Of a stretch of DNA of 35,964 bases, positions 6,590 to 29,254 are shown in pieces; positions within the stretch are counted from its first letter, which is position 1; each line of letters opens with the position of its first letter. This DNA is from a virus. The notes under the pieces are model-generated. The model had not been told where the DNA came from and ran no database searches. It saw only the letters and a program-made list of their open reading frames with translations. The stretch is from IMG/VR virus record IMGVR_UViG_3300033148_002988, positions 1-35,964 of that record; one strand, written 5' to 3'. Both the position numbers and the translations under genes were made by a program.

Positions 6590-7078
6590 CTAGCACTCCT
6601 TTACTAAAAGTTGTATTTTCTGTGTCTGTCTAGTACAAACTTGAATTTTATTTTGATGTAATCCTAAAAGCAACTTGTTTTGTTTAAGCGTGGCTACCAC
6701 CTGTTTTTTTGATAGCTCTAAATCCAATTTATTCTGTCCTAAAGTAAATTGGATACGCTCAATTATAGCTAAACTATTCGGAGAAATTACAGCATCTGCT
6801 AAAAGAAATACGTCTGTTAGCTCTGCGTAGTTCTCGTCTAGTACTGTATATGTAGCGTCTGTGTAAACTCTATGTAAGACATATACAAAAGAAGTTGCAG
6901 GCATAGCTACTGCAATGCTTCTAAAAAGTCCGTCACCTATATGAGGTAAATTTTCTGTAGCAATGACTGCATTAGTATCATCCCGCACAACTGCTCTAGG
7001 GAAAATATCGGTAGCTCCGTCGTACCCGTTATTTGTGAGAGGAATAATTTCCCCTAGTTTTAACTTTAATAACCCCAT
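6590..7078 (-). CDS. Beta-rich appendage-region protein with C-terminal QNK repeats
   Basis: A 162-residue protein. Residues 1-95 form a probable beta-sandwich, with the pattern PRAVVRDDTNAVIAT followed by HIGDGLFRSIAVAMP, common in small fibre-associated proteins. After an amphipathic helix, the last 50 residues hold three related strands (LGQNKLDLEL, LKQNKLLLGL, LHQNKIQVCT) and then QTQKIQLLVKEC. This is a short beta-repeat that could build a trimeric spike-like shaft. It overlaps the cysteine peptidase gene upstream by 13 bases and is followed after one base by the last gene of the block. Role in the virion is inferred. Confidence 0.6.
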   Translation of the reverse strand: MGLLKLKLGEIIPLTNNGYDGATDIFPRAVVRDDTNAVIATENLPHIGDGLFRSIAVAMPATSFVYVLHRVYTDATYTVLDENYAELTDVFLLADAVISPNSLAIIERIQFTLGQNKLDLELSKKQVVATLKQNKLLLGLHQNKIQVCTRQTQKIQLLVKEC

Positions 7079-7638
7079 AACTTACTCTCCTTAAACATAG
7101 GCGCTATGTTCACACATTGCATACTATCTTTAAAAATTTGTACTCCTCTGTCAGGTGTAAGCATCTGAGAGGAGTATCTGTTAAATTGAATGTCAGAATA
7201 TTTAGCTAAAAATTCCTCTGTAGTTTTCAAAACTTCACTACAGAAAAAATCTGTTTTGTCTGCCCACTTATTCTCAGGAGGTAGATCCTGTCCCATTAGT
7301 TTTATACAGACAATAATACTCACAGCTAAGAAAGACACGCCTTTTATATCGTAATCCTTACCATAGAGTTCTGTGTGAATCTGAGCAAAGGCCCTCATGT
7401 GTGCTTTGTTATTTCCTTTAGGGATAGCAAAGGCATAAACGACTTCATTATGTTTTAGAAACTCATGAATCCCTAATACTCTAACCCCCTCCTGAAACGT
7501 GGAGTCCAGTATTAGGGAGCTGCTTCTAGGGTATTTTGTATCTACCAAAGCGAAATGACTAACATCCTCTTTGGCCTCTAGACCCCACCGTATTATTTTA
7601 CTTGCAGGGTAGTTGTTTCTAGTGAATAAAAAAATCAT
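7066..7638 (-). CDS. Permuted papain-fold (NlpC/P60-like) cysteine peptidase or amidase
   Basis: A 190-residue protein with the circularly permuted papain layout (YiiX/YaeF/LRAT-like branch of NlpC/P60). The His comes first in DVSHFALVD (H28) and the catalytic Cys later in DFFCSEV (C133, followed by S134-E135). Between them lies ELYGKDYDIKG, which matches the YD strand of this family. Such enzymes hydrolyse peptide or acyl bonds; in phages they are found beside tail fibre genes and may cleave cell-wall peptides or modify the envelope. No signal peptide is visible. The hydrophobic stretch near 100-113 is part of the fold rather than a clear membrane segment. Catalytic residues are seen; substrate is unknown. 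Confidence 0.65.
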   Translation of the reverse strand: MIFLFTRNNYPASKIIRWGLEAKEDVSHFALVDTKYPRSSSLILDSTFQEGVRVLGIHEFLKHNEVVYAFAIPKGNNKAHMRAFAQIHTELYGKDYDIKGVSFLAVSIIVCIKLMGQDLPPENKWADKTDFFCSEVLKTTEEFLAKYSDIQFNRYSSQMLTPDRGVQIFKDSMQCVNIAPMFKESKLWGY

Positions 7639-8282
7639 TCTACTACCTCGTGGAAAGGTGCATTCATCCAGAAATCTAAGTCAGTAGCCTCATCATGGAA
7701 AACTTCTATACGGATAATAAAGTAAGTGTACAGCTTGGCCTTATATAACTCTAAAATTTGTAGAGTATCGTCAAAACCCCAACTAGGTACAAACTCATCT
7801 AACACAACCTCATTGTCAGGACTACCTGCAGGGTGTCCTTGAGGAGCAACTATTTCTAAATGGAAGTAATCGAATTTACCTGAGCCGAAAGCTTTAAATA
7901 CAGCTCCCGTGATAAAAATTTCTTTTAATATCATGTACTCAAAAACTTTACTTGTATTCGCTGCGGGTACAGTACCTGCGAAAATTCTAGTACCCCGGAA
8001 ATGAAAATTCCCTGCATCTGCAAACATAGGAACGTCTGTTTTTATTTTACTAGGGAATAAACCTAATATGTGTAGAGTAGCATCAGCAGTACTTAAATCG
8101 TTAGTACCGTCGTTATATGTGATATGAGGCAGAGCTAAAACCTCTATAGCTCCGTCGCTTATTTTTAGTTGCTCATAATAACCAGGAGGTACAACTAGCT
8201 CACCCTCCGCAGGAATCTCTAGCCCTCCTGTCTTAGGAATAGGTACAATATCTGTAGAGGAGTTTTTATAAATTTTTGTCAT
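7635..8282 (-). CDS. Hypothetical appendage-region protein
   Basis: A 215-residue protein. The start is taken as ATG at 8282, with AAAGG nine bases upstream and an ATGA overlap with the preceding gene's stop, rather than an upstream start at 8312. Residues 1-50 resemble a short beta domain (EIPAEGELVVPPGYYEQL), of a type seen in phage proteins that fill gaps in virion surfaces. The rest is aromatic-rich and beta-strand-like, with no motif I can name. It sits between a signal-peptide-bearing protein and the cysteine peptidase, overlapping both by 3-4 bases. Probably virion associated. Confidence 0.6.
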   Translation of the reverse strand: MTKIYKNSSTDIVPIPKTGGLEIPAEGELVVPPGYYEQLKISDGAIEVLALPHITYNDGTNDLSTADATLHILGLFPSKIKTDVPMFADAGNFHFRGTRIFAGTVPAANTSKVFEYMILKEIFITGAVFKAFGSGKFDYFHLEIVAPQGHPAGSPDNEVVLDEFVPSWGFDDTLQILELYKAKLYTYFIIRIEVFHDEATDLDFWMNAPFHEVVE

Positions 8283-8923
8283 AGAGATAAACCTTTCATG
8301 GCTATAGTACACCCTACATTTTTTACAGCATTTAATACTTTTATAGCAAGTTGTTTATTCTGTGTTACTGGTACAGACAAAGCTCCTGTGCTTCCGCTCC
8401 TAGCTGATGTTACAGTGAGAGTACCTAAAAGAATAGGGTTTACAAAATCACCCTCATGCTCATAATATTCTACGGAATAGGTATCAATATCCTCCTGACC
8501 ACAAGCCACAGATTTTACAGTACCTGTACCTACCATGATAGGGATGCCTGATATATTTGACGGTACACTGCCTGCCCTGTCTAAAAAAGAGTTTGCTACC
8601 GCATTACCGCTTTTTCCAAAACTAGCAGTCTGTGTAAAGACGGAGGAACCTAAACCATCCTCTACCCAATCAATAGGACTAGCGCCTGTTTTAGCGTAAA
8701 CAGTACCATCAGTTTGTCTATAGGATGAGCCTATAGGTGCATCTACTCCCGGGAAAATTGTAGGGTCCGCTACTCCTCCCCCATACCATATTAAATTGCC
8801 GTTTTCATCTGATATCATAGTCCCGTTTTCAATACCAAACGACTGTAAGATATTAAAGGCAGAAGCCCCCGAAGGGACTCCTGCTAGGAACATCAGAAAT
8901 AAGAATTTAATCTTATAAGACAT
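8279..8923 (-). CDS. Fibre-region protein with Sec signal peptide
   Basis: A 214-residue protein opening with a complete Sec/signal-peptidase-I signal: a short basic n-region (K4, K6), a hydrophobic core FLFLMFLAG and the cleavage motif ASA (residues 20-22) before FNIL. The mature part has APIGSSYRQTDGTVYAKTG...DWVEDG, a motif common in phage tail-fibre and tip proteins. It also has a C-terminal beta domain with two Cys (in VACGQED and VGCTIAM) that could pair in an oxidising compartment. It overlaps the upstream gene by 11 bases. The tail-fibre-like motif and the export signal point in different directions: virion part, or secreted/surface protein. Confidence 0.65.
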   Translation of the reverse strand: MSYKIKFLFLMFLAGVPSGASAFNILQSFGIENGTMISDENGNLIWYGGGVADPTIFPGVDAPIGSSYRQTDGTVYAKTGASPIDWVEDGLGSSVFTQTASFGKSGNAVANSFLDRAGSVPSNISGIPIMVGTGTVKSVACGQEDIDTYSVEYYEHEGDFVNPILLGTLTVTSARSGSTGALSVPVTQNKQLAIKVLNAVKNVGCTIAMKGLSL

Positions 8924-10079
8924 TCTTTCTAACCTCTCTTCTGCGTGCTGTAATAGTAGCAGAAGCGGCAGCAGTCATACGCAAACGCATATTTCCACTA
9001 TCGATATCTACCACTACAGTACGATTTAAGTTTGAGCCTGTTTTTATCTTAGCCATAGGACTAGAATAAGAAACGACAGCAGCTCCGTTATTCATAGCGT
9101 GAATAAAGAAAGCTCCTGCATTCGCAGGCGTACCCGTTTCGAAAAAGTTTACCTGCCAGAAAACTGACCTTGCATCAGCTACAGGAATGGAGTCGATAGT
9201 CTGAACAGTAGTAACACCGACGACCTGAACCCCACGGTCTTGAGCGTGTAACACACCCAAGGCTTGTAATGCTGCTTTTACCGAAAGAGCAGACGATAAA
9301 AACAAAGTTGCAGGAGTTGTAAAAGCTCCTAAAGATGTAGCGTTTCGTGCTACTCCAATTACAGCTAAAGCATCGATCAAACCCTTTTCGATTTTCTCAA
9401 TTGCTACCTGAACAGTTTCTGTACCTGTTAAAGCACCTGTGGTAGCTGCCAAGCCATTCATGGAAATTCCAGTTGCAAGAGCCCAGTTAAAATCTGAGAT
9501 TTTAATTACTGCTGCACCTGCTACCGGGATGGTAACTAGTGCCTGTGCTTCCTGCGCTGCACCTACATCAGGTAGGTAACTCTGTACTACAAATGTGTTG
9601 TTGTCTACGATTGGTTGAGCCGCTGCTGCTAGTGTAACACTAGTATCAGAGACTTTTGCAGTCATTTCTAACAATACAGGAGTACCGTCCCCGTCAACTA
9701 AAACGTGGTCCCCTATTGACATATCATCACCACCGAAACCTTTTTCGTTATCGGTCCATGCAGTCATGTCAATAGCAGAGCCAGGAGCTACCGAATCATC
9801 GGTGAGGGCACCGATTTTTTCATTTCTCCATTTCAGATTAGATAAATTGACGTTACCTAATTCTGTCCAGTCAGCTGTAGAGCCTACGTTAGCAATTTTT
9901 TTAAAAATAGCACCTGATGTGGTGTTATGATACATCGACCCGATACCTGCAGCATCTTGAATCGAAGCATCACCACCCGGTGCTGCTGTCCCTTGCAAAC
10001 CTAAACGAACTCCCCCGCCTGGTTGCGCATCTTGTCCCGTGACTTCAATATAAAGTTCACTAGAAAATCCATCTTGCAT
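8913..10079 (-). CDS. Tail fibre or tip protein
   Basis: A 388-residue protein rich in Ala, Thr, Gly and Val, with many short strands. Its N-terminal third contains IGSMYHNTTSGAIFKKI...STADWTELGN, the same layout as the DG-Y-K-DW motif of the next gene and of many fibre proteins. A middle section (about 85-170) reads like a small beta-barrel ending in VVQSYLP. Helical parts (TVQVAIEKIEKGLIDALAVI) follow, and then a C-terminal beta domain with AGAFFIHAMNNG. No signal peptide or enzyme motif is visible. Probably a structural appendage that contacts the host; receptor unknown. Confidence 0.6.
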   Translation of the reverse strand: MQDGFSSELYIEVTGQDAQPGGGVRLGLQGTAAPGGDASIQDAAGIGSMYHNTTSGAIFKKIANVGSTADWTELGNVNLSNLKWRNEKIGALTDDSVAPGSAIDMTAWTDNEKGFGGDDMSIGDHVLVDGDGTPVLLEMTAKVSDTSVTLAAAAQPIVDNNTFVVQSYLPDVGAAQEAQALVTIPVAGAAVIKISDFNWALATGISMNGLAATTGALTGTETVQVAIEKIEKGLIDALAVIGVARNATSLGAFTTPATLFLSSALSVKAALQALGVLHAQDRGVQVVGVTTVQTIDSIPVADARSVFWQVNFFETGTPANAGAFFIHAMNNGAAVVSYSSPMAKIKTGSNLNRTVVVDIDSGNMRLRMTAAASATITARRREVRKNVL

Positions 10080-10096
10080 TAATCAATACTCCTTCA

Positions 10097-10429
10097 TTAG
10101 TTAGATGTTTTAACAATCGACACACCTATGCCGAAAGTGTTCGTGTTATCAATCTGTAATTTAGTGTCGGAGCCGTCTTTGATGAGCTTTACAACGGAAG
10201 TCAAGTTATACGCAAAAGTGACATACTTCTGAAACCTTACCTCAGTGTCAGTTTTGTTACCTTTGATGTTTAGGGAAGTCGAGGCGGATTCGGATGTATT
10301 GAATAAAAGTATTTGATACTCTGTTGATACAAAATCCGTGAAAGGTGTAATATCAAAGTAGCCAGTGGACAGGGCAGGGATGCTGCCCTTTATTTTACGT
10401 CCTGATATTCTCTGTAGTGCTGTTACCAT
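10097..10429 (-). CDS. Small beta-rich protein of unknown role
   Basis: A 110-residue protein beginning inside the end of the lysis enzyme gene (35-base overlap) in another frame. GAGGA lies 11 bases upstream of the ATG. It is mostly beta-strand-like (TGYFDITPFTDFVSTEYQIL and similar) with no Cys and no membrane segment. The later part has the look of a small virion decoration or fibre-cap domain. It separates the lysis cassette from the following fibre gene. Function not recognised. Confidence 0.55.
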   Translation of the reverse strand: MVTALQRISGRKIKGSIPALSTGYFDITPFTDFVSTEYQILLFNTSESASTSLNIKGNKTDTEVRFQKYVTFAYNLTSVVKLIKDGSDTKLQIDNTNTFGIGVSIVKTSN

Positions 10430-10904
10430 CGCTTACATATTCCTCATACTTAAGTAATATTTTATCGACGTATCTCTGATTGACATACTTGCCTGTGTTC
10501 TTATCAATGATAGGAGAACCTGCATTATAAGCGGCTAAAGTCATGCCTACATCGTAACCATATCTTTTCAGTATGTGGGAGAAATACTCACATCCATAGT
10601 ATAACCCAAGCCCTGGCTTTGTACAAAGCTCAGGTAAAAACCCCTGGTACCCACGTTCTGTAGCAACTGCTCCCATAACTTGCATAAGCCCGTAAGAAAA
10701 ACGCTGTAGAGCCTCCTCAGAGGCGTAAGAGATATTCTTAAGCTTTGCTATTCTTTTTACTTTAAATAACCACCTGTAATGAGATTCGAAGCGAATAGCG
10801 TACGTGGAAAAATTAGATTCAGCATAAACAATAGCTGCGACTAGATGAGGGTCCAGTTTAAATTTTTTTGCTACTTCGTTTATTTCTTTTTGGAAAGGAT
10901 ACAT
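10395..10904 (-). CDS. Lytic transglycosylase (SLT/GH23 fold), phage lysis enzyme
   Basis: A 169-residue peptidoglycan lytic transglycosylase. The ATG at 10904 follows the lipoprotein stop by four bases. A longer frame exists to 11045, but its extra part is shadow coding of the lipoprotein gene and is rejected. Catalytic Glu is E29 in VYAESNFS. The SLT signatures YGLMQVMG (71-78) and AAYNAGSP (124-131) follow at family spacing, and DPHLVAAIVYAESNF is typical of soluble SLTs. There is no signal peptide, so it should accumulate in the cytoplasm and need a holin. The enzyme cleaves the MurNAc-GlcNAc bond. It is the last gene of the lysis cassette. Confidence 0.9.
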   Translation of the reverse strand: MYPFQKEINEVAKKFKLDPHLVAAIVYAESNFSTYAIRFESHYRWLFKVKRIAKLKNISYASEEALQRFSYGLMQVMGAVATERGYQGFLPELCTKPGLGLYYGCEYFSHILKRYGYDVGMTLAAYNAGSPIIDKNTGKYVNQRYVDKILLKYEEYVSDGNSTTENIRT

Positions 10905-10908
10905 AATT

Positions 10909-11205
10909 TTATTTTCCTCGGAAATAAGGGAAGGTACTTTTGTTTTCCTCTTCTGTAAGAGCTCTCTCCAATAGTTTCCGCATATCCCTCTCAAATAAAC
11001 AAAACATTTCCCCAAACTTTTTATCCTTACTCGAGATAAATTCATCTGCCTGACCCCTTGATACTCCTGCCTTTGCAGGATCTCCTACATATACCGATAC
11101 ATTGAGCGGCTCTTTTTCAGTGCTTTGACAACTTGGAACCGAGAGCACGAATAGTCCGCTCAATATCGCTAGTGTCCTTAGTTTTCTTTGCTTTGATGAA
11201 TGCAT
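10909..11205 (-). CDS. Small lipoprotein, candidate outer-membrane spanin
   Basis: A 98-residue protein with a lipoprotein signal: basic start (KQRKLR), hydrophobic core LAILSGLFVL and a lipobox-like VPSC with Cys26 as the modified residue. Pro at -2 is unusual. The mature part is 73 residues, charged and mostly helical, not the Pro-rich type of lambda Rz1. The ribosome site AGAGGT lies five bases before the ATG. The gene overlaps the preceding 85-residue gene by 89 bases in a different frame, the arrangement typical of Rz/Rz1 pairs. Role in outer-membrane disruption is inferred from lipobox, overlap and position next to the lysis enzyme. Confidence 0.65.
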   Translation of the reverse strand: MHSSKQRKLRTLAILSGLFVLSVPSCQSTEKEPLNVSVYVGDPAKAGVSRGQADEFISSKDKKFGEMFCLFERDMRKLLERALTEEENKSTFPYFRGK

Positions 11206-11374
11206 TTGTTACCTCTTTAATTTGAATTGAACACTCTTTATTTTCCACAGGATGCTTGTTTAAGTAAGCAAGGAATTCCCTAGCCAAAGAAGTTACCGCT
11301 ATAGCGAGTTTCAAAAGCTTAGGAATTTCTTTTATAAAAAGCACCGCAGCTATACCTAGCTGCGTGATCCCCAC
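11117..11374 (-). CDS. Small membrane-active protein in lysis cassette
   Basis: An 85-residue protein starting with GTG at 11374, three bases after the preceding stop, with GGAAAG eight bases upstream. A longer frame from 11542 is antiparallel noise within the preceding gene and is rejected. The first 40 residues are hydrophobic but carry Lys/Glu (LGIAAVLFIKEIPKLLKLAI), more like an amphipathic or interfacial helix than a clean membrane span. The rest is a charged helix. Its 3' end overlaps the lipoprotein gene by 89 bases in the +1 frame. It could be the inner-membrane spanin partner, an antiholin or a holin component. Confidence 0.6.
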   Translation of the reverse strand: MGITQLGIAAVLFIKEIPKLLKLAIAVTSLAREFLAYLNKHPVENKECSIQIKEVTNAFIKAKKTKDTSDIERTIRALGSKLSKH

Positions 11375-11376
11375 GT

Positions 11377-11577
11377 TTATTTCTTTCCGATAGACAAAGG
11401 GCCAGTGGTTACTACTCGTAAAATCATCACAAGTAAACCCACGCCTGCACCAATCATTCCCTGATTTTCTGCTATTACCTCTTTGATCGGAGGATGAAAA
11501 ATAGAAACTACGGAGGCCACAGAGGTAATTAAACCAAGCCACATTGTTTTAGATAACCAAGGATTCTTTTTTTGCAT
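11377..11577 (-). CDS. Holin-like protein with two membrane segments
   Basis: A 66-residue protein with two hydrophobic segments: MWLGLITSVASVVSIF (about 12-27) and MIGAGVGLLVMILRVV (about 41-56). A charged turn PPIKEVIAENQ lies between them and LRVVTTGPL at the end. That ending, with Trp near the start, resembles small phage holins that form lesions in the inner membrane and release the lysis enzyme. The ribosome site AAAGG is eight bases upstream. Flanked directly by other lysis-cassette genes. Holin is the most likely role, but several membrane proteins here compete for it. Confidence 0.65.
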   Translation of the reverse strand: MQKKNPWLSKTMWLGLITSVASVVSIFHPPIKEVIAENQGMIGAGVGLLVMILRVVTTGPLSIGKK

Positions 11578-11581
11578 AGTG

Positions 11582-11932
11582 TTAGCCTTTCTTAGCTACG
11601 TGTTTATTCATATCGAGGTATACTTCTCTTATTTTACCATGTTGATTCCGAATGTCTTTAGTATTCTTCTCCACATCTTTTTCCAGACGTACAAGGTTAT
11701 CGTGATCTCGCCTAACATATTTAGATTCTACAGAGATTTTATCTATGGTTGATACATTTTTATCAAGCTTATCATCCAATTTATCTAACTTTGTAAAAAA
11801 TAGGTCTGTGTTATCTTTTAGCTCTTTTCTTAGGAGCTCTCGGGTAGAGCTACCTGATGCCTGGACCCTCCACATTATTCCTACTGCACCTATGAGCAAA
11901 CCGATTAGAGTAAGTACATTTGTTATTGTCAT
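11582..11932 (-). CDS. Membrane-anchored coiled-coil protein (i-spanin or holin-associated)
   Basis: A 116-residue protein with one N-terminal membrane segment (VLTLIGLLIGAVGIMW, about 6-21), then about 90 residues of charged coiled coil with heptads of Leu/Ile/Val (LFFTKLDKLDDKLDKNVS and on). This is the layout of an inner-membrane spanin: short cytoplasmic N-terminus, one span, periplasmic coiled coil. It also resembles small phage proteins that help holins. The next gene starts four bases after its stop. Its partner would be the lipoprotein at 10909-11205. Assignment between spanin and holin helper is open. Confidence 0.55.
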   Translation of the reverse strand: MTITNVLTLIGLLIGAVGIMWRVQASGSSTRELLRKELKDNTDLFFTKLDKLDDKLDKNVSTIDKISVESKYVRRDHDNLVRLEKDVEKNTKDIRNQHGKIREVYLDMNKHVAKKG

Positions 11933-11935
11933 AAA

Positions 11936-12079
11936 TCACTCCGCCTGTTCTTTTAAAAATTCTAAAAACGTGGGACCCACTTGTTTTTCGTCCGAACTTC
12001 TGAGTAGATTAGGTAAGGCTAGTAGGAGTATTAAAGCTACTACAATAATAATGTAGGCTTTTAAAAATGTCATTCGCAT
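11936..12079 (-). CDS. 47-residue single-span membrane protein at head of lysis cassette
   Basis: A small gene: ATG at 12079, ribosome site GGGAGA eight bases upstream, TGA at 11938-11936 three bases before the next ATG. The product has a short basic N-terminus, one strong membrane span (AYIIIVVALILLLALPNLL, about residues 8-26) and a charged tail of about 20 residues (RSSDEKQVGPTF and on). This matches tiny phage membrane proteins acting as holins, antiholins or lysis regulators. It is the first gene after the hairpin and possible promoter at 12102-12144. The gene is well supported by spacing and ribosome site; the exact role is inferred. Confidence 0.65.
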   Translation of the reverse strand: MRMTFLKAYIIIVVALILLLALPNLLRSSDEKQVGPTFLEFLKEQAE

Positions 12080-12101
12080 AAGTTGTTTCTCCCAAAGTAT
12101 T

Positions 12102-12132
12102 AAGGCCTAGCTCCACGGTAGAGCTAGGCCTT
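12102..12132. terminator. 12-pair perfect hairpin (possible + strand terminator or 5' mRNA stem of lysis operon)
   Basis: AAGGCCTAGCTC (12102-12113) and GAGCTAGGCCTT (12121-12132) are perfectly complementary around a 7-base loop. On the + strand a TTTTTATTAT tract follows, giving a classic intrinsic terminator that would stop antisense transcription. On the - strand the bases after the stem are TTAATACTTT, a poor U-tract. There it may instead be the 5' stem of the lysis mRNA, because a -10 element lies immediately before it. Confidence 0.6.
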
Positions 12133-12135
12133 TTT

Positions 12136-12144
12136 ATTATATCA
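12136..12144 (-). promoter_or_regulatory. Extended -10 promoter candidate for lysis cassette
   Basis: The - strand reads TGATATAAT at 12144-12136: a consensus TATAAT with the TGn extension. No good -35 box lies 16-18 bases upstream, which extended -10 promoters can tolerate. Predicted transcription start is near 12129-12130, at the first G of the perfect hairpin. The first downstream gene is the 47-residue membrane protein. It sits just after the end of the 12162-12449 gene. Unverified, as AT-rich DNA can produce such boxes by chance. Confidence 0.4.
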
Positions 12145-12161
12145 TTTTTAAGATGACAGAG

Positions 12162-12449
12162 TTACTCGTAGTGAACATCTAAAATCTTATCCTCAACATA
12201 AGACTTACCATTTTTCTTATGGTTCCTACTCTCTATTAAATCCCTCATTTCCTCACGCTTAGTATTTGTATAGTTAACTATATCGTTTTCTATAGCAGCT
12301 ATAAGCGCATCCTCTGTAGTGATACCTGCCTCGTATTCCTCAAGCTCTACAATACGATCTTTAATTCTTTGATCGGAACTAGCGTTTCCTCTGTGACCGT
12401 TTATAATATCATTCCTAGTATTCTTTGGTATTCTGTCTGGCCTTGGCAT
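12162..12449 (-). CDS. Hypothetical charged protein before lysis cassette
   Basis: A 95-residue highly charged, helical protein with a basic N-terminus (PRPDRIPKNTRNDIINGHRG) and an acidic middle (ELEEYEAGITTEDALIAAIE). It has no Cys and no membrane segment. The ribosome site AAGGA lies upstream of the ATG in a 28-base gap after the large signal-peptide protein. Basic-plus-helical composition could mean DNA or RNA binding, perhaps a regulator of the lysis genes directly downstream, but this is a guess from position. Not recognised. Confidence 0.55.
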   Translation of the reverse strand: MPRPDRIPKNTRNDIINGHRGNASSDQRIKDRIVELEEYEAGITTEDALIAAIENDIVNYTNTKREEMRDLIESRNHKKNGKSYVEDKILDVHYE

Positions 12450-12477
12450 AATGTATTTTCCTTATGGTAAATATTTA

Positions 12478-14394
12478 TTATTTAACTATATAAGTAAAAG
12501 TACCACTAATCACAACAGTACCTGTATTATTACTTATATATTTTATCTTTACTTTATCATTAGCCGCATCGGCCTCTATGTGAGCTGAATCATTATCAGT
12601 AGCAATATTATAAAGAGAGGCAGAGCCGTTAGCGTCGTCCACAGTGGTAAAATTTGATGCTATAGGTACATCTAAATTAAACTCTGTTAGTGTAGCTGCT
12701 GCTGTAGTATTTATAGACCCCTCAAACCCTACAAGAATAAAATTACCTACTCTTAAATAGTGACACGTAAAACTAACGCCTGAATCTACGTTAGAAATTC
12801 CCGTAAATCCTAGCGAGGTATTACCTGAACCCAAGTCCTTAGTAGCAGCATTAAAAGTGCCTACTAGTCCTGCATTAGTAGCATCAGCTAAAGGCTTAAA
12901 CCCTAGAGAGCTAGTTACATTAAACTCTTGTTTTCTAGTGATAAGAATTTTATTCCAGTCACCTGTCGTTAGGTAATTCTGGGAAGCTACTCCATTCATA
13001 TTCCAGAATCTTATCTCTTCTCCCTCAGTAACATCAAACTCAAATGTTTTAGCTACTGTTCTCGTATCACCTGTGTGCTCTGTAATAGCTGCTGATGTAG
13101 TTAGTACACCGCTATCTCTGTTTATAGCAAACCTAAGAGCGCCTGTACCTGACCCGGTACCAACACTAACCATCACACTAACTCGACCTGTAAAACTAGG
13201 GGTCCATATGTCAGTAGCTACATTGTAATCAGGTACATTCGTACCTGTTACTAGCTCCCCATCCCATTCAGTATAACTAGTAGGTATAAAACCACCTGAG
13301 TTATTTTCTATCTCTAACTCATAATTCGCTTTAGCCATAGAGTTATTAAACAGGTGTACAGTACCTTGACCTAACCATTCAATAATTCTAACTCTCAAGA
13401 AACCACTTATCTTATCACCGTTTGCAAAAATAAAAGGAGCTGTAGGGGTAGAAAAATCCTCTTGGTCTCCTGTAGATGTTTGCATTAACCAAAAAGCGTT
13501 TACCTCTCCGTTTAGAGGAGCACCGTATGGTTGAGGCGAACATTTATGTCTGTTAGTTGACCCTGTATCTTGGAAACGACACCAACCAGCTGTACTACTG
13601 CCTGCACTCCCTAGGCCAGGCATGTTTGTTAAATCAGGATGTAAACTAGCAGGTAGTTGTACTAAAAGATTACCTGCTATTCCTGTAACATTTGTTAGCT
13701 CAGCATCCCAATAAACTTCTAAATGTTCTCCGTCCCTAACTGCCTCAGATGTAACTGTCCAGGCAGAGGTACCGAAAGCAATAGACATACCTATGTCACC
13801 TAATTTCTCTTTGTGTGGAGCTTGTCCTATAGATTTTGTACCAATCCAAACTAAATCATAACGGATTGGGTTAGCATCTCCGGAGGATTCCATTTCTATA
13901 TACAACGTTCTATCGTTTGTTGTAGCAGCTAGCGCAGGATAGACTCCACTGAGTTCTATCTCTGTCCAGTTTGTTACTGCATCTGTGATTACCACGGGTT
14001 CAAAGCTTGGGACTATATCACCGTCTGCATCTCTTAACCTTACCGTAATGTCTGCACCACCTGCACCGAAATACCAAAGGGAGGGTACTCCATGGACTCC
14101 TGCTAGTCGGTTAGGAATTAATTTCTCCGCACTCTTAACCGTGGCAGCTGCTGCGGAGGGATTCCAAACACAAGATGTTTTTCCGTCATATACTTCTGAG
14201 GCCGTAGACGTAGTGGATAAAGTACCTGCTCCTGCCTCAATCCAACCTTGCTTACCATTCTCACAGCCGTTATTCACAACTATATTTACATCAGGGTTTG
14301 ATTGGTTAGCTATGTCTTTATTCTCATATGCAGCTAGTGCTATGAAGGAATTAAAAAATAGGGCTATCAATAATATTGAATTCAAAATTTTCAT
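12478..14394 (-). CDS. Large multidomain fibre-like protein with Sec signal peptide
   Basis: A 638-residue protein. Residues 1-21 are a clear signal peptide (basic start, core ILLIALFF, cleavage motif ALA at 19-21). About 33-190 resembles a galactose-binding/CBM-like jelly roll, opening NNGCENGKQGW and closing DLVWIGT. About 200-370 is a beta-rich middle domain with Cys in WCRFQ and HKCSP. About 375-500 has a C1q/TNF-like pattern (GRVSVMVSV...FAINRDSGVL...ITRK). About 505-638 is a C-terminal domain with CHYLRVGNFILVGFEG and ending FTYIVK, a layout frequent at phage fibre tips. Cys are spaced as if able to form disulfides. Start follows the previous stop without a gap. Receptor binding is likely; the signal peptide is unexpected for a virion part. 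Confidence 0.65.
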   Translation of the reverse strand: MKILNSILLIALFFNSFIALAAYENKDIANQSNPDVNIVVNNGCENGKQGWIEAGAGTLSTTSTASEVYDGKTSCVWNPSAAAATVKSAEKLIPNRLAGVHGVPSLWYFGAGGADITVRLRDADGDIVPSFEPVVITDAVTNWTEIELSGVYPALAATTNDRTLYIEMESSGDANPIRYDLVWIGTKSIGQAPHKEKLGDIGMSIAFGTSAWTVTSEAVRDGEHLEVYWDAELTNVTGIAGNLLVQLPASLHPDLTNMPGLGSAGSSTAGWCRFQDTGSTNRHKCSPQPYGAPLNGEVNAFWLMQTSTGDQEDFSTPTAPFIFANGDKISGFLRVRIIEWLGQGTVHLFNNSMAKANYELEIENNSGGFIPTSYTEWDGELVTGTNVPDYNVATDIWTPSFTGRVSVMVSVGTGSGTGALRFAINRDSGVLTTSAAITEHTGDTRTVAKTFEFDVTEGEEIRFWNMNGVASQNYLTTGDWNKILITRKQEFNVTSSLGFKPLADATNAGLVGTFNAATKDLGSGNTSLGFTGISNVDSGVSFTCHYLRVGNFILVGFEGSINTTAAATLTEFNLDVPIASNFTTVDDANGSASLYNIATDNDSAHIEADAANDKVKIKYISNNTGTVVISGTFTYIVK

Positions 14395-15120
14395 TTATTC
14401 TACCTCTGAAGCGTTTGGAATAAAGCGTAAATCTGCGGTATCTGTATCGGTACCCCTGGTTAAAACTACTCTAAGAATGTCACCTGCTGATAGTGCCACA
14501 CTATTAATTTCTCCCGAACCATCCGTGAGGTCTATAATAGCCTCCTGAGGAGCGTTAGCTGTAGCAGGGTTAGTTAGTGCTACATTTGTGCTGACATGGA
14601 AATTTGAGGTAGTATCTACCCCGTCTGTGGCCTTGCGAATCAAATAGGTTGAGGCTTTAAATAACGAGGTATTAATTACCGAGGGTGTGAAATACATAAC
14701 CCTCAATGTTTTTTCTACTCCCGATAAATGGGAGGGGGAAAGTTTCACATCAGTTTCTAGTCTACTTCCGCTCGAGGAGTCATATAGAAAAACTGTTTGT
14801 CCTAATTCATCTGCACGTAAAGGAGCTACTCCGGGTGCTTCTCTCCAAACTAGAGAGCCACCGCCTCCCCCTGAACCCATAGACTCGTAGTTCACTCCGT
14901 CTTTTGCAAACTCAATTTCAGGTGCTGTAGTGTTAAATCTTATCTTAGGGTTAGCCGAACCTAGACCAAGGTCTGCCTCAAAAACTTTACTTGTAGTAGT
15001 TCCTGTCCCTAAAATCAAAGTGTCTTTAGAAATTCTCTCATAGCCTGCGGCGAACGCCACGCCTGCTACCACGCCTAAAAGTAATGTAAGGATTTTGTGT
15101 TTTTGTAAAAATTTTAACAT
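14395..15120 (-). CDS. Fibre-region protein with Sec signal peptide
   Basis: A 241-residue protein. The ATG at 15120 is chosen over an upstream start at 15177 because GGAGG lies six bases before it and a perfect signal peptide then begins: KFLQKHK, core ILTLLLGVVAGV, cleavage motif AFA (22-24). The mature part holds LGTGTTTSKVFEADLGLGSANPK, an arrangement seen in fibre proteins. A Gly-rich linker follows (SGGGGGS near 82-88), and then a beta domain (about 95-241) resembling a phage receptor-tip domain. It has no Cys after the chosen start. It lies two bases after the previous gene and is followed directly by the large signal-peptide protein, so the two may form one export-linked unit. Confidence 0.65.
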   Translation of the reverse strand: MLKFLQKHKILTLLLGVVAGVAFAAGYERISKDTLILGTGTTTSKVFEADLGLGSANPKIRFNTTAPEIEFAKDGVNYESMGSGGGGGSLVWREAPGVAPLRADELGQTVFLYDSSSGSRLETDVKLSPSHLSGVEKTLRVMYFTPSVINTSLFKASTYLIRKATDGVDTTSNFHVSTNVALTNPATANAPQEAIIDLTDGSGEINSVALSAGDILRVVLTRGTDTDTADLRFIPNASEVE

Positions 15121-15121
15121 A

Positions 15122-15754
15122 TTAAACCTCCGTGATCGTATCTGACACTGGACCTTTTTTACCTGCAGGCACAGCATCTTGGTTAACTTCCTCTATAGTA
15201 CTTGGTCCAAACCTTGTACCCCTAATGTAACAATACTCTGCACCCACAAGCTGAGTGATAGCTATGTCACCTCCCACAGTCCAGCCCACGAGTCTACCAA
15301 ACTCTAGAACTATTCCTTCGGCTTCGAAGCTAAAACATTTTGTAGCAGCGCCCTTAGTATAAACGACTCCTGGCTTAAACTCTATTTTCCAACGTGCTTT
15401 TGTTAAAGATATCGTAGTGTCAATAGATGCACTATCGTCAATACGTACTGTTACGTCGGTACTATAAGCTCCGTCTGCTAAAGCTAGGGCTAGCGTAGCG
15501 TGAGTAGCTGCAGGACCAGAACCCACAATTATATCGTATCGTGTGTCTGTCTCATCTGTTACAGACTCAAAATATTGCTGCCACTCGTGAATGATCCAAA
15601 ACAGCCAGTTAAAAATAGGAGCAGGTGGCTCCTCATCGTCTAACCATGCTGTTTTCTTTTTACTTGCAGTAGGCTCTATAACTCTGTTAGCAAAGTCCAC
15701 GTTGCCTACGGCCCAATTAGTTTTTGTACTCGGTTTAGGTAAGGGCACGGTCAA
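15122..15754 (-). CDS. Tail fibre / appendage protein, baseplate-proximal
   Basis: A 210-residue protein. The N-terminal region, with PAPIFNWLFWIIHEWQQYFE, matches the conserved attachment segment of phage fibre proteins that follow baseplate I genes. From about residue 75 the pattern of short strands (VTVRIDDSASIDTTISLTKA, IEFKPGVVYTKG, IVLEFGRLVGW) resembles a right-handed beta-helix of the pectate-lyase type. It overlaps the DUF2612 gene upstream by 4 bases (ATGA). It probably connects baseplate and distal fibre parts. It has no signal peptide, unlike the two genes after it. Confidence 0.65.
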   Translation of the reverse strand: MTVPLPKPSTKTNWAVGNVDFANRVIEPTASKKKTAWLDDEEPPAPIFNWLFWIIHEWQQYFESVTDETDTRYDIIVGSGPAATHATLALALADGAYSTDVTVRIDDSASIDTTISLTKARWKIEFKPGVVYTKGAATKCFSFEAEGIVLEFGRLVGWTVGGDIAITQLVGAEYCYIRGTRFGPSTIEEVNQDAVPAGKKGPVSDTITEV

Positions 15755-16446
15755 CCTCCTATGCCAGCTAGAACACCGCCAACTCTAGGGTCAATCACTG
15801 ACCCAAAGCCTCCTGTGTCGTTATTGTTTCCTGCAAAAGCAAAAGGTACTTTCCTCCTGTGATAGGTGGCTAGTTTACCTCCTGTATTTCCTGTAATGTC
15901 TGAGAAGCCTGCGCTAGGAGCATCTGTGTTCGGGCCTGAAAATCTAAAAGGTTTTACAGCATCAAAACACGTTAGACTATCTACCCTTACTCCTCCTGCT
16001 GCGACTTTTTCCATATTGTCGTAAACAAAATTTATTAAGCCAGGCTCTAGAGGTACGTCTGCACCTAGAGAAACGGAGCCTCCTCCTAAATCTTTATAGT
16101 GAACTAATGTAGCTCCTGTAAGAAGTTGGTAAATACTAATTAATTTTTCAGAACCACCCTGGGAATTATTTTGTCCAATTTTTACATACAAAAGTATTCT
16201 ATAAAAATCATCGTCAAACCCCTCTCGTGCTTGATCGACTATTGTACCAATGTTATCTAGCTGCTGACCCACTGCGTTAGCTAAGGCACGAGCATCTATC
16301 ATAGCATGTATAGCGTCCTCTATTTCCTGAATCTGTTTTACTACAGCAGAGATAAAAGCCTCATGATAAGGCTTTCCTTTGAAAGGAGAGGTAGAGCGTT
16401 TTAAGGCTACTATAATGTGATCTAAAATTTTAGGTATGTCTGTCAT
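15751..16446 (-). CDS. Baseplate wedge / tail protein I (DUF2612 family)
   Basis: A 231-residue protein. Residues about 50-110 contain NAVGQQLDNIGTIVDQAREG, then DDDFYRILLYVKIGQNNSQGG and LISIYQLLTGATL, the hallmark block of the DUF2612 family. That family sits directly after baseplate J in contractile-tailed phages and forms part of the baseplate wedge. The C-terminal 60 residues are Gly/Asn rich (PFAFAGNNNDTGGFG) and probably attach fibres. The order gp25-like, J, I, fibre seen here is the standard contractile-tail arrangement. Confidence 0.85.
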   Translation of the reverse strand: MTDIPKILDHIIVALKRSTSPFKGKPYHEAFISAVVKQIQEIEDAIHAMIDARALANAVGQQLDNIGTIVDQAREGFDDDFYRILLYVKIGQNNSQGGSEKLISIYQLLTGATLVHYKDLGGGSVSLGADVPLEPGLINFVYDNMEKVAAGGVRVDSLTCFDAVKPFRFSGPNTDAPSAGFSDITGNTGGKLATYHRRKVPFAFAGNNNDTGGFGSVIDPRVGGVLAGIGG

Positions 16447-16448
16447 AT

Positions 16449-18296
16449 TTATACCTCTACAATAGTGATAAGTGAAGTATCAAAGTCAGATATTTCTCTC
16501 GGCTCAATCACTATGTTATCCTCTAATGTAGGCCCTGCTGTTTTCCCTACTCGAATAACAATATCAGTTATGCCTGGTACACTTCCAAAAGATGCTTCTA
16601 ACGAATTAGACCCATGTACTATAATATCTTTACCTATCCCTAAACCGTCCCCCCATGCTACTATAGCAGCTTTTACTTGGTCCTCTCCGTCCGCAGGATA
16701 CTCGTTAGAGTCTACAGTTAAATCTAGCTCTACGTAAATAGGGACAACCGTAGGCCTTGAGTATTTCATCGTCTTAGCAAAACCTTTTGAGTCATAGGAA
16801 ATTTTTGTAACGTCTCCTATGAGTGTAATACCTCCTGCTTTAGAATCAAGGATAGCATCAGCTATTTCTTGGTCGTCTCCGTCCTGCACTACTATATCTA
16901 AAGAGTTAGGAGGCCTACCATCTACATCTACAATGTCTGTATCATTTTCAAAAACAAAAACTTCTTTTACATTTTCTACTTTTCCCAACCTTGCAATAAT
17001 CGCATTTATTGTAGAGCGTCCTGCTGTAGCAATTTCCTCTACTCGCTTTAATCTAAAATCAGGGTCCGACTCTATAACGGCTCCTGTAATTTCATCTAAA
17101 GCATTTGTACAGCTCTCCCAACCAGTAACAGGAGTTTCTATTACTGTGAGGGTGCCTGAAGGTGCTTTTACTGCACCTGTAGCTGTAGCTGCAGCTAACA
17201 CATCTATCTGAGGTAAAACACCTGTAACAGAAACGGAAATATTTATAGGTAAATTTCCTGCACTATATCCTTGCTTAGGTGTGCTGAGTGTAAATGCAGT
17301 GTCTACGTCTGCTCCGTCTACTCGGTCTCCCTGCTCTGCATCTATGATAGTAATAACATTGCCTACCTCGGTAGCGGAAAACTCAGGGTCGACGCTAAGC
17401 TCTGTCGCTATCGTGGTGGCAATGGAGTTAGCAGAGTCGCCAGTAGCAACACCTGTTATCTCAAAATGTCTGTCTGCTGCTAAAGCAGAAGGGGGAGGAG
17501 CAGAGCCTGAATCATCTATATCGAACCAAACTACTACGCTACCGTCTTTGTCGTATAATGTGAAAGATGTTCTATCTAAGTTTGCTGCCACATCTGCGAC
17601 AGTAACAACTTGGGTTTGCTCTGCACTTGTTAAAGTATTTGAATTTACTGTGATTAAAGATTGAGGAGTAGAACCTAAATCGTTTAGGAAAGTAACGGCC
17701 AGGCTCCCACTTTGTACGTCTCCGGAGACACTAACATTTCCTGCACCTATTGTTAGTAGGGCCTCTAAAGCTAACTCCACTGTTACTGCTGTGTCGTTGT
17801 AATTAAGAGCTGCTGTAATCGATCCGAGGAAAGCTAGAGTAAATGTAGCTGCCTCAGGCAAAGTAGGTAAGGCTATAACTTGAGTTTCGTTTATTCCTGC
17901 TGCTATAGTAGCGTTAGCACTTGTAGCGAACTTTGCAGTATCGTTACCGTCTACAGAAATTATTTTTCCTGCCTCTATTAAAGTTCCTACAACCCCGAAT
18001 AAAGTTAGAGTAACTCTACTTGAGCTAGCTCCGTCCCTAGTTGACCCTGTAATAGATGCTACATTGTCTAAACTAGTTCCCTCTGATGAAGGATACTGTG
18101 AGTTATATACCTGTTCTGCAAGCTCCCACACGCTACCTAATCTATCAGCTAGACTACTGAGAATCTGCCCAATAGGTTGCTCGTCGTCTAAATCTACACT
18201 GTCACCCAATGTAGGCCTTAAATCATCCTGCATTTCTGTTAAAATATCTGCGGTTCTTTTTGCATTAAACCCCTCGGTTGTAACTCCATAAGTCAT
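16449..18296 (-). CDS. Baseplate wedge protein J-like
   Basis: A 615-residue baseplate J family protein. The N-terminus (GDSVDLDDEQPIGQILSSLA, then EQVYNSQYPSSEGTSLDN) and the core ESDPDFRLKRVEEIATAGRS, with the following AIIARLGKVENVKEVFVFEN, are diagnostic of Baseplate_J. It is longer than most members: about 120-345 holds an insertion of two beta-rich modules (for example FTLAFLGSITAALNYNDTAV and GVATGDSANSIATTIATEL). The C-terminal domain resembles the usual J end. It forms the baseplate wedge with the gp25-like and I proteins. It overlaps the gp25-like gene by four bases. Confidence 0.92.
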   Translation of the reverse strand: MTYGVTTEGFNAKRTADILTEMQDDLRPTLGDSVDLDDEQPIGQILSSLADRLGSVWELAEQVYNSQYPSSEGTSLDNVASITGSTRDGASSSRVTLTLFGVVGTLIEAGKIISVDGNDTAKFATSANATIAAGINETQVIALPTLPEAATFTLAFLGSITAALNYNDTAVTVELALEALLTIGAGNVSVSGDVQSGSLAVTFLNDLGSTPQSLITVNSNTLTSAEQTQVVTVADVAANLDRTSFTLYDKDGSVVVWFDIDDSGSAPPPSALAADRHFEITGVATGDSANSIATTIATELSVDPEFSATEVGNVITIIDAEQGDRVDGADVDTAFTLSTPKQGYSAGNLPINISVSVTGVLPQIDVLAAATATGAVKAPSGTLTVIETPVTGWESCTNALDEITGAVIESDPDFRLKRVEEIATAGRSTINAIIARLGKVENVKEVFVFENDTDIVDVDGRPPNSLDIVVQDGDDQEIADAILDSKAGGITLIGDVTKISYDSKGFAKTMKYSRPTVVPIYVELDLTVDSNEYPADGEDQVKAAIVAWGDGLGIGKDIIVHGSNSLEASFGSVPGITDIVIRVGKTAGPTLEDNIVIEPREISDFDTSLITIVEV

Positions 18297-28406: not shown

Positions 28407-28805
28407 TTAATCTTCTTTTTTTTCTGCTTTTGCCTCTACCATTTCTATCTGTTTTTCTATTTCACTAAATACGCCTGGTCTGTCCTCGACCTGTAGCCAT
28501 GATTGTAATAAAAGAATATCGTAAGTTTTTTTCACTAGAGGAATTGCTTTTTTAATATTTAGTTTTCTAAGAATTTCTTTGTCGTCTGTAGACTCACCTG
28601 CTTTAGTACTAGAAGCCGCTAACTCTATAACTAGAGTATTATCTTCTAGTCTCTTTACTATTTTAGGGTGGTCTTTTATATTTTCCCAGTCTGCATCGTC
28701 TACAGTATTTACACCCGGCATGAGTACTACATTTTTGTGAATGACACCCTCTTTATTTACGATAGGTAAATGGAGAGCATTAGGTAAGTTGTAATTTAAT
28801 AACAT
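28407..28805 (-). CDS. PGVN-motif protein A (FluMu/HI1506-like)
   Basis: A 132-residue protein. ATG at 28805 is preferred to an upstream TTG at 28820 because AAAGGT then sits at normal spacing. The N-terminal beta part contains VVLMPGVNTVDDADWENIKD; the rest is helical and charged with an EKKED end. The same PGVNT-ADxxxxK pattern is in the neighbour at 28824-29237, so the two are probably paralogs. Proteins with this motif occur between capsid and connector genes in Mu-like and related phages. Function is not established. A structural role is likely from position. Confidence 0.65.
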   Translation of the reverse strand: MLLNYNLPNALHLPIVNKEGVIHKNVVLMPGVNTVDDADWENIKDHPKIVKRLEDNTLVIELAASSTKAGESTDDKEILRKLNIKKAIPLVKKTYDILLLQSWLQVEDRPGVFSEIEKQIEMVEAKAEKKED

Positions 28806-28823
28806 GTGTCGACCTTTCAAAAT

Positions 28824-29237
28824 TTACTTTTTTGGTTTCTTATCCTCTTTCGCCTTAGCTTTTGCTGCTTTAGCATCTGCTGCTTTAGCATCTGCTGCTT
28901 TAGCATCTGCTGCCTTAGCTTCTGCTGCTTTAGCTTCTGCTGCTTTAGCTTCTGCTGCTTTAGCTTCTGCCTTAATCTTATCATCCTCTATTTTCTTAGC
29001 ATCTGCATCAGCCTTAGCTTTAACTGCTGCTTTTGCCTCTGCTTCATCCTCTAAAATCTGCTTACTCTTTTTATCCTGCATTTCGAATAATCTTTTTTTA
29101 GCTACTATAGTCTCAAAAGCAGGAATTTTAAGAGCCTTTTTCCACTTCTTAATGTCTGCCTTATTCAAAGTATTTACACCCGGAGCTAAACAAAGTCCTG
29201 CTGCATTTACTCTAGCGCCTGTATTAAATATTTTCAT
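28824..29237 (-). CDS. PGVN-motif protein B with Ala/Lys repeat tail
   Basis: A 137-residue protein directly after the capsid terminator. Residues 1-55 share CLAPGVNTLNKADIKKWKKA with the next gene, showing they are paralogs. From about residue 70 onward it is almost only Ala, Lys, Glu and Asp. Seven copies of the pentapeptide AEAKA/ADAKA are encoded by a 15-base tandem repeat, and the end is KEDKKPKK. This should form a long charged helix or coiled coil, similar in composition to TolA or histone H1-like proteins. Repeat number may vary among relatives. It could bind DNA or other virion parts; unknown. Confidence 0.65.
   Translation of the reverse strand: MKIFNTGARVNAAGLCLAPGVNTLNKADIKKWKKALKIPAFETIVAKKRLFEMQDKKSKQILEDEAEAKAAVKAKADADAKKIEDDKIKAEAKAAEAKAAEAKAAEAKAADAKAADAKAADAKAAKAKAKEDKKPKK
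28861..28965 (-). repeat. 15-base tandem repeat (seven copies)
   Basis: Seven near-identical 15-base units (top strand TCTGCTGCTTTAGCA or ...GCT) lie in frame in the PGVN-motif protein B gene. Copies differ at the first, ninth and last base. They encode AEAKA/ADAKA repeats. Confidence 0.9.
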
Positions 29238-29254
29238 AGAAAGAATTCCCTAGT

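Follow-up and report, generated by a model that had tools for sequence, protein, structure and literature searches.

It is commonly assumed that a phage makes its tail fibres, and attaches them, within the cytoplasm. The locus described here raises the question why three proteins of one fibre region (P0001, P0002 and P0003) should begin with N-termini of the kind that directs a protein out of it. The window, by which we mean the whole stretch of DNA analysed, is a 35,964-base IMG/VR virus record with no near relative among 50,697 GenBank phages. Its minus strand reads as the late operon of a contractile-tailed phage, with terminase and baseplate genes leading into a fibre and lysis region; the matches of its terminase and baseplate genes are remote and varied and point to no particular host. 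P0002 and P0001 are adjacent and come after a fibre-type gene, while P0003 lies beyond the lysis genes, after another fibre-type gene whose product has no family match in Pfam or PHROGs (Table 1). Each of the three genes has a Shine-Dalgarno-like site, and P0002 starts with an ATG at 15120 behind GGAGG in a frame that is open to 15177. In the same part of the window a short lipoprotein-like ORF (10909-11205, lipobox-like LSVPSC) overlaps the gene of an SLT-domain endolysin (10395-11045) and resembles an outer-membrane spanin. The protein encoded at 7066-7638 resembles Peptidase_C92 (YiiX/YaeF-like permuted papain fold) at a level below the threshold, and a homologous-looking gene occupies the same place in a related contig (L012, 11295-11834).

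Table 1. Predicted features of the three proteins, their neighbours in the window and corresponding genes in related loci (L numbers)
Feature	Sequence	Position	Strand	Remark
P0001, 638 aa: signal peptide, conserved mature extension, CBM4/16-like domain, variable C-terminal part	window	12478..14394	-	
P0001 signal peptide, 21 aa, cleavage ALA^AY	window	14332..14394	-	score 11.6
P0001 mature N-terminal extension, cleavage site to NNGCE (NPGFE) motif	window	14275..14331	-	16-19 aa in most relatives
P0001 CBM4/16/22-like domain, residues 37-190	window	13825..14286	-	profile and model matches
P0002, 241 aa: signal peptide, fibre-shaft module, C-terminal CBM6/35-like domain ('GTDTDTAD' domain)	window	14395..15120	-	
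P0002 signal peptide, 24 aa, cleavage AFA^AG	window	15049..15120	-	score 15.1
P0002 shaft module (LILGTG...NPKIRFN...FAKDG)	window	14860..15048	-	
P0002 C-terminal domain, jelly roll nearest CBM6/35/36 modules	window	14398..14859	-	Z about 10, many ties
P0003, 214 aa: signal peptide, fibre-like mature part with two cysteines	window	8279..8923	-	
P0003 signal peptide, 22 aa, cleavage ASA^FN	window	8858..8923	-	score 15.4
Conventional fibre-type protein without signal peptide	window	15122..15754	-	directly upstream of P0002; weak PHROG tail-fibre matches
Conventional fibre-type protein without signal peptide	window	8913..10079	-	directly upstream of P0003
Baseplate genes, gpI/DUF2612-like and gpJ-like, contractile tail	window	15751..18296	-	upstream of P0002 and P0001, same operon
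gpI/DUF2612-like gene	window	15751-16446	-	
Baseplate J-like gene	window	16449-18296	-	
CBM fibre protein without signal peptide	L029	5959-7872		compare L043
CBM fibre protein without signal peptide	L030	6456-8369		compare L043
CBM fibre protein without signal peptide	L040	6405-8294		compare L043
CBM fibre protein with signal peptide	L043	6421-8436		
Lipoprotein gene after exported CBM gene	L012	6261-7187		
Lipoprotein gene after exported CBM gene	L016	8824-9798		
Lipoprotein gene after exported CBM gene	L019	8575-9426		
Lipoprotein gene after exported CBM gene	L020	9084-10031		
Lipoprotein gene after exported CBM gene	L028	9256-10176		
Lipoprotein gene after exported CBM gene	L010	16356-17300		

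An earlier note on this DNA had read the three N-termini as complete Sec/SPase I signal peptides ending in ALA (residues 19-21 of P0001), AFA (22-24 of P0002) and ASA (20-22 of P0003), and this is how we find them. All three genes lie on the minus strand, and their products combine a basic n-region, a hydrophobic core and a small-x-small cleavage site at these residues, with scores of 11.6-15.4. The N-termini are MKILNSILLIALFFNSFIALA^AYENK in P0001, MLKFLQKHKILTLLLGVVAGVAFA^AGYER in P0002 and MSYKIKFLFLMFLAGVPSGASA^FNILQ in P0003, and a lipobox is absent from each. Our scorer was a von Heijne-type weight matrix with terms for the n-, h- and c-regions. It was calibrated before use on 81 E. coli K-12 proteins whose localisation was assigned by hand from annotation: the 16 Sec/SPase I proteins all fell within 9.0-20.5 and none of the 46 cytoplasmic ones exceeded 5.7, with an overlap in that a few inner-membrane proteins score up to 12, within the exported range. 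Among 49 non-overlapping ORFs of the window, a score of at least 6 is reached only by the three proteins and by one artefact (28804-29253, plus strand), which is antisense to an alanine/lysine-repeat protein (28824-29237, minus strand). When the sequences were shuffled within their own composition, the observed score was reached in 3 of 5000 shuffles for P0001 and in 0 of 5000 for both P0002 and P0003. The fibre genes tested in lambda, T7, P2, Mu and T4 score low and have no signal peptide, and lambda lom is the only positive in the fibre regions of these phages. A conventional virion tail fibre is cytoplasmic and has no export signal, and P0001, P0002 and P0003 differ from it in this respect. 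Judged by scores and controls, the predicted signal peptides of the three proteins are genuine secretion signals.

The same arrangement is found in some 35 other uncultured phages. We scanned viral contigs (IMG/VR) with the C-terminal domain of P0002, a search that is blind to signal peptides, and obtained 31 loci. Merging identical contigs and dropping one locus cut at a contig end left 26 distinct phages, counted by hand. In 23 of these a signal-peptide-bearing relative of P0001 is the next or next-but-one gene to the gene with the P0002-type domain; all 23 relatives score above the highest cytoplasmic control and 17 of them score at least 9. The exceptions are L029/L030, L040 and L033. In L033 signal peptides are present on the domain protein and on both neighbours upstream of it, and the contig carries a signal-peptide-bearing CBM gene elsewhere (L058). 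When the viral contigs were scanned again, now with the CBM family, 22 loci came up, most of them in new places and all with signal peptides. In a third scan the shaft module of P0002, where it is N-terminal, always stands behind a signal peptide, and elsewhere it occurs mid-protein within ordinary fibres that have none. That three such genes in one phage are a pattern and not an accident, as the earlier note had put it, is therefore borne out by phages that were not selected for signal peptides. The only relatives of P0003 that turned up are in L012, where the homologue (10004-10651) also has a signal peptide, and in a further assembly of the window's own phage.

Since the contigs range in G+C from 0.37 to 0.56 and differ in the neighbouring tail genes, the exported cassette appears to move between phages. 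A profile scan of cellular genome contigs confirmed no relative of the GTDTDTAD domain, and the CBM-family scan of cellular contigs returned only generic CBM domains (Hymenobacter, Verrucomicrobia, Streptomyces and others). The exported CBM gene is followed, in at least six relatives that are phages of different kinds, by the gene of a divergent lipoprotein of about 300 aa (Table 1), which probably belongs to the exported cassette. This lipoprotein family has no Pfam or PHROG match and is missing from the window. On the contig of L010, which is shared with L027, five signal-peptide-bearing fibre-region genes and one signal-peptide-bearing lipoprotein gene lie within about 10 kb (7324-17300), in a run that is broken by a homing-endonuclease-like gene; a patatin-like gene comes after the run.

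Two explanations would remove export from the picture altogether. One is that the hydrophobic N-termini arose by chance and have no function, which only the general frequency of hydrophobic stretches could favour; the shuffle controls, the same-genome background, the presence of the feature in three of three proteins of one region and its recurrence in 23 of 26 phages rule out an origin in chance or composition, and we give it negligible weight. The other, which the earlier note had kept as its alternative, is that the segments are uncleaved anchors or membrane-interacting parts of the virion. A hydrophobic N-terminus alone is indistinguishable from a signal anchor, and some inner-membrane proteins score equally high. 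A comparison of the N-termini in relatives, proposed by the earlier note, shows a signal that is conserved in kind, divergent in sequence and nearly fixed in its small-x-small cleavage site relative to the mature domain. The signal peptides diverge faster than what follows: P0001 and its relative in L003 are 44% identical in the signal peptide and 77% in the mature part, against 67% and 84% for P0002 and L003 and 25% and 63% for P0003 and L012. For other pairs of relatives the gap is clear in two and small in one (L037-L038). In most of 35 family members a conserved N[PG]GFE motif follows the predicted cleavage site at a distance of 16-19 residues, while the signal peptide itself varies from 15 to 31 residues (mean about 20).

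Cysteines supply a signature that is independent of the N-terminus. The number of mature cysteines is even in 29 of the 33 cysteine-containing exported proteins, compared with 55 of the 136 non-exported proteins encoded on these contigs (Fisher 5.5e-7; the 35 exported proteins tested were reduced at 40% identity, so they are not fully independent). Cysteine content is 12.1 per 1000 residues in the exported set and 7.9 in the non-exported one. This even count implies that the exported set consists of disulfide-bonded proteins. For the window the argument rests on the family, because P0001 has an odd number of mature cysteines and P0002 has none. The earlier note had seen spaced cysteines in two of the proteins; the mature counts are corrected to 5 in P0001, 0 in P0002 and 2 in P0003. 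Further evidence comes from three loci (L029, L030 and L040) that encode a P0001-type protein without a signal peptide, in the equivalent place of the operon and with the same N-terminal extension as their signal-peptide-bearing siblings. The copy in L029 begins M-SITNRDKAELGV, exactly at the predicted mature start of its relative L043, where the predicted cut is GNTQA^AITDRDKAELGV. Together these loci form a natural comparison between presence and absence of the signal peptide. No internal start codon with a Shine-Dalgarno site was found near the cleavage site in the 19 genes checked, which rules out two isoforms made from such a start. Because divergence, the distance from cleavage site to motif, even cysteines and siblings that start at the mature residue all point the same way, we consider an uncleaved anchor very improbable.

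The mature parts suggest what is being exported. The CBM-like modules described in the earlier note are supported for the P0001 family, in which the A4 profile of the conserved domain matches solved CBM16 structures (2zex/2zew, E 3e-5) and the domain model has structural matches to CBM16, CBM22 and CBM4. This domain is a predicted sugar-binding jelly roll of the CBM4/16/22 type; the C-terminal part of P0001 gave a low-confidence model. The C-terminal domain of P0002 was modelled confidently as a beta-sandwich, with CBM6/35/36 modules nearest among many tied matches (Z about 10). As modelled, the mature domains of P0001 and P0002 are jelly rolls of predicted sugar-binding type, CBM4/16-like and CBM6/35-like respectively. 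Neither protein has a Pfam or PHROG match, and a PDB sequence search with the single window proteins gave nothing meaningful. The C1q-like modules also named in the earlier note could not be confirmed, with no Pfam match in the window proteins and one relative (L043) just below the C1q cut-off. Recognisable fibre pieces do occur in exported members. One in L033 (5057-5878) has GGTG-type repeats, another (L033, 4417-5046) has a PHROG tail match (E 6e-10), further members have weaker tail matches and that of P0003 is marginal. The repeat in L033 is 76% identical to part of a tail fibre without signal peptide in MW202697. Because CBM-type folds and fibre pieces both occur in them, we regard the exported proteins as phage fibre and lectin modules with a predicted secretion signal in front.

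Comparison with known systems helps to place these proteins. Conventional tail fibres, such as that of MW202697, share shaft and tip modules and operon position with them and differ in having cytoplasmic N-termini without a signal peptide. CBM4/16 and CBM6/35 modules share the fold and, for the P0001 family, the CBM16 profile match, whereas no catalytic domain was detected in the exported proteins. The nearest phage precedent is lambda Lom, whose gene lies among those of the tail fibres and which likewise has a signal peptide. Lom, annotated as an outer-membrane protein, differs from the predicted jelly-roll lectins with fibre modules found here, several per phage; where P0001 and P0002 were modelled with confidence, their domains are jelly rolls and not outer-membrane barrels. 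The nearest cellular parallel is the mosaic adhesive trimer (MAT) fibres of Bdellovibrio bacteriovorus, which have a signal peptide, a conserved beta-rich first domain and exchangeable phage-like tips (PMC10769870). The P0001 family has the same order of a signal peptide, directly followed by a conserved beta-rich domain and then a variable tip. The parallel is one of layout and does not imply homology: MAT fibres are encoded by chromosomal genes of a predatory bacterium, in contrast to the phage tail operons here, and no sequence match was found to the solved MAT tips, with which alone the comparison was made. A search of open-licence literature brought up no account of phage tail fibres with signal peptides, which is weak evidence of novelty.

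As far as sequences can tell, sugar-binding fibre-type proteins of these phages appear to leave the cytoplasm, whereas textbook phages assemble such proteins into the tail within the cell. Predicted export and periplasmic folding are well supported. The proteins would be expressed along with the tail genes. Once across the inner membrane and rid of the signal peptide, they would fold in the periplasm, with disulfides, apart from the particles assembling in the cytoplasm. The short signal peptides fit a diderm host without proving one. In such a host the proteins would wait in the periplasm until freed by lysis, because they lack a lipobox and their modelled domains are not barrels. After lysis they would bind glycans outside the cell, and their most likely role would be that of additional receptor-binding parts, docked on virions after release by way of the conserved mature N-terminus. 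The complete account, in which late, Sec-exported and SPase I-processed lectin-type fibre proteins fold in the periplasm, bind glycans after lysis and dock on virions, is our preferred one, and we put it a little below evenly balanced.

What these proteins do once exported is where the explanations divide. Addition to virions is favoured because the siblings without signal peptide make a P0001-type protein in the cytoplasm, from the same operon place and with the same N-terminal extension, because nothing in the genome encodes a cytoplasmic twin for the P0002 tip to mimic, and because T4 fibres can join finished particles (T4 annotation). The modules held in common with ordinary fibres further support a virion role. 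The siblings without signal peptide are equally compatible with export being dispensable. Soluble lectins whose targets are cells rather than virions would be backed by the same scores, recurrence and even cysteines, and by the same carbohydrate-binding folds. They would cover glycans or receptors of the surface, either in the periplasm or once the cell has lysed, leading to superinfection exclusion or keeping progeny off debris, and the lipoprotein gene that travels with the cassette in at least six relatives suggests a wider envelope-directed set. We consider this explanation unlikely, if still a serious one: no route across the outer membrane is visible in the proteins, and simple masking by a decoy predicts an exported copy of a cytoplasmic fibre tip, of which this genome has none. 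The window genome has no second copy of P0002, which rules out an exported decoy of a virion tip. The proteins might otherwise be adhesins on the surface of the infected or lysogenic host, through which the phage alters host adhesion. The position of lambda lom in the fibre region, with a signal peptide, and the layout of the MAT fibres (PMC10769870) speak for this, whereas the genes lie within a late tail operon, which belongs to a stage when lysis of the cell is near, neither a surface anchor nor a barrel was recognised, and no relative turned up in prophages of the cellular genomes scanned, where the CBM-family scan gave generic CBM matches only. Such adhesins seem to us distinctly improbable.

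Returning to virion docking, a broader form of it is that, in a widespread group of uncultured tailed phages, the receptor-binding apparatus is finished from outside, through Sec, periplasmic disulfide folding and addition at or after lysis. We offer this as a possibility about which we are more doubtful than hopeful. The recurrence of fibre-type lectins with signal peptides suggests that part of the adhesive equipment of phages can use the export and disulfide machinery of the host. If true, this would change where phage receptor-binding proteins are sought and how virion parts are predicted from sequence. It would also change views of how phages may manage glycan receptors at lysis. Sibling phages with and without the signal peptide make the question directly testable.
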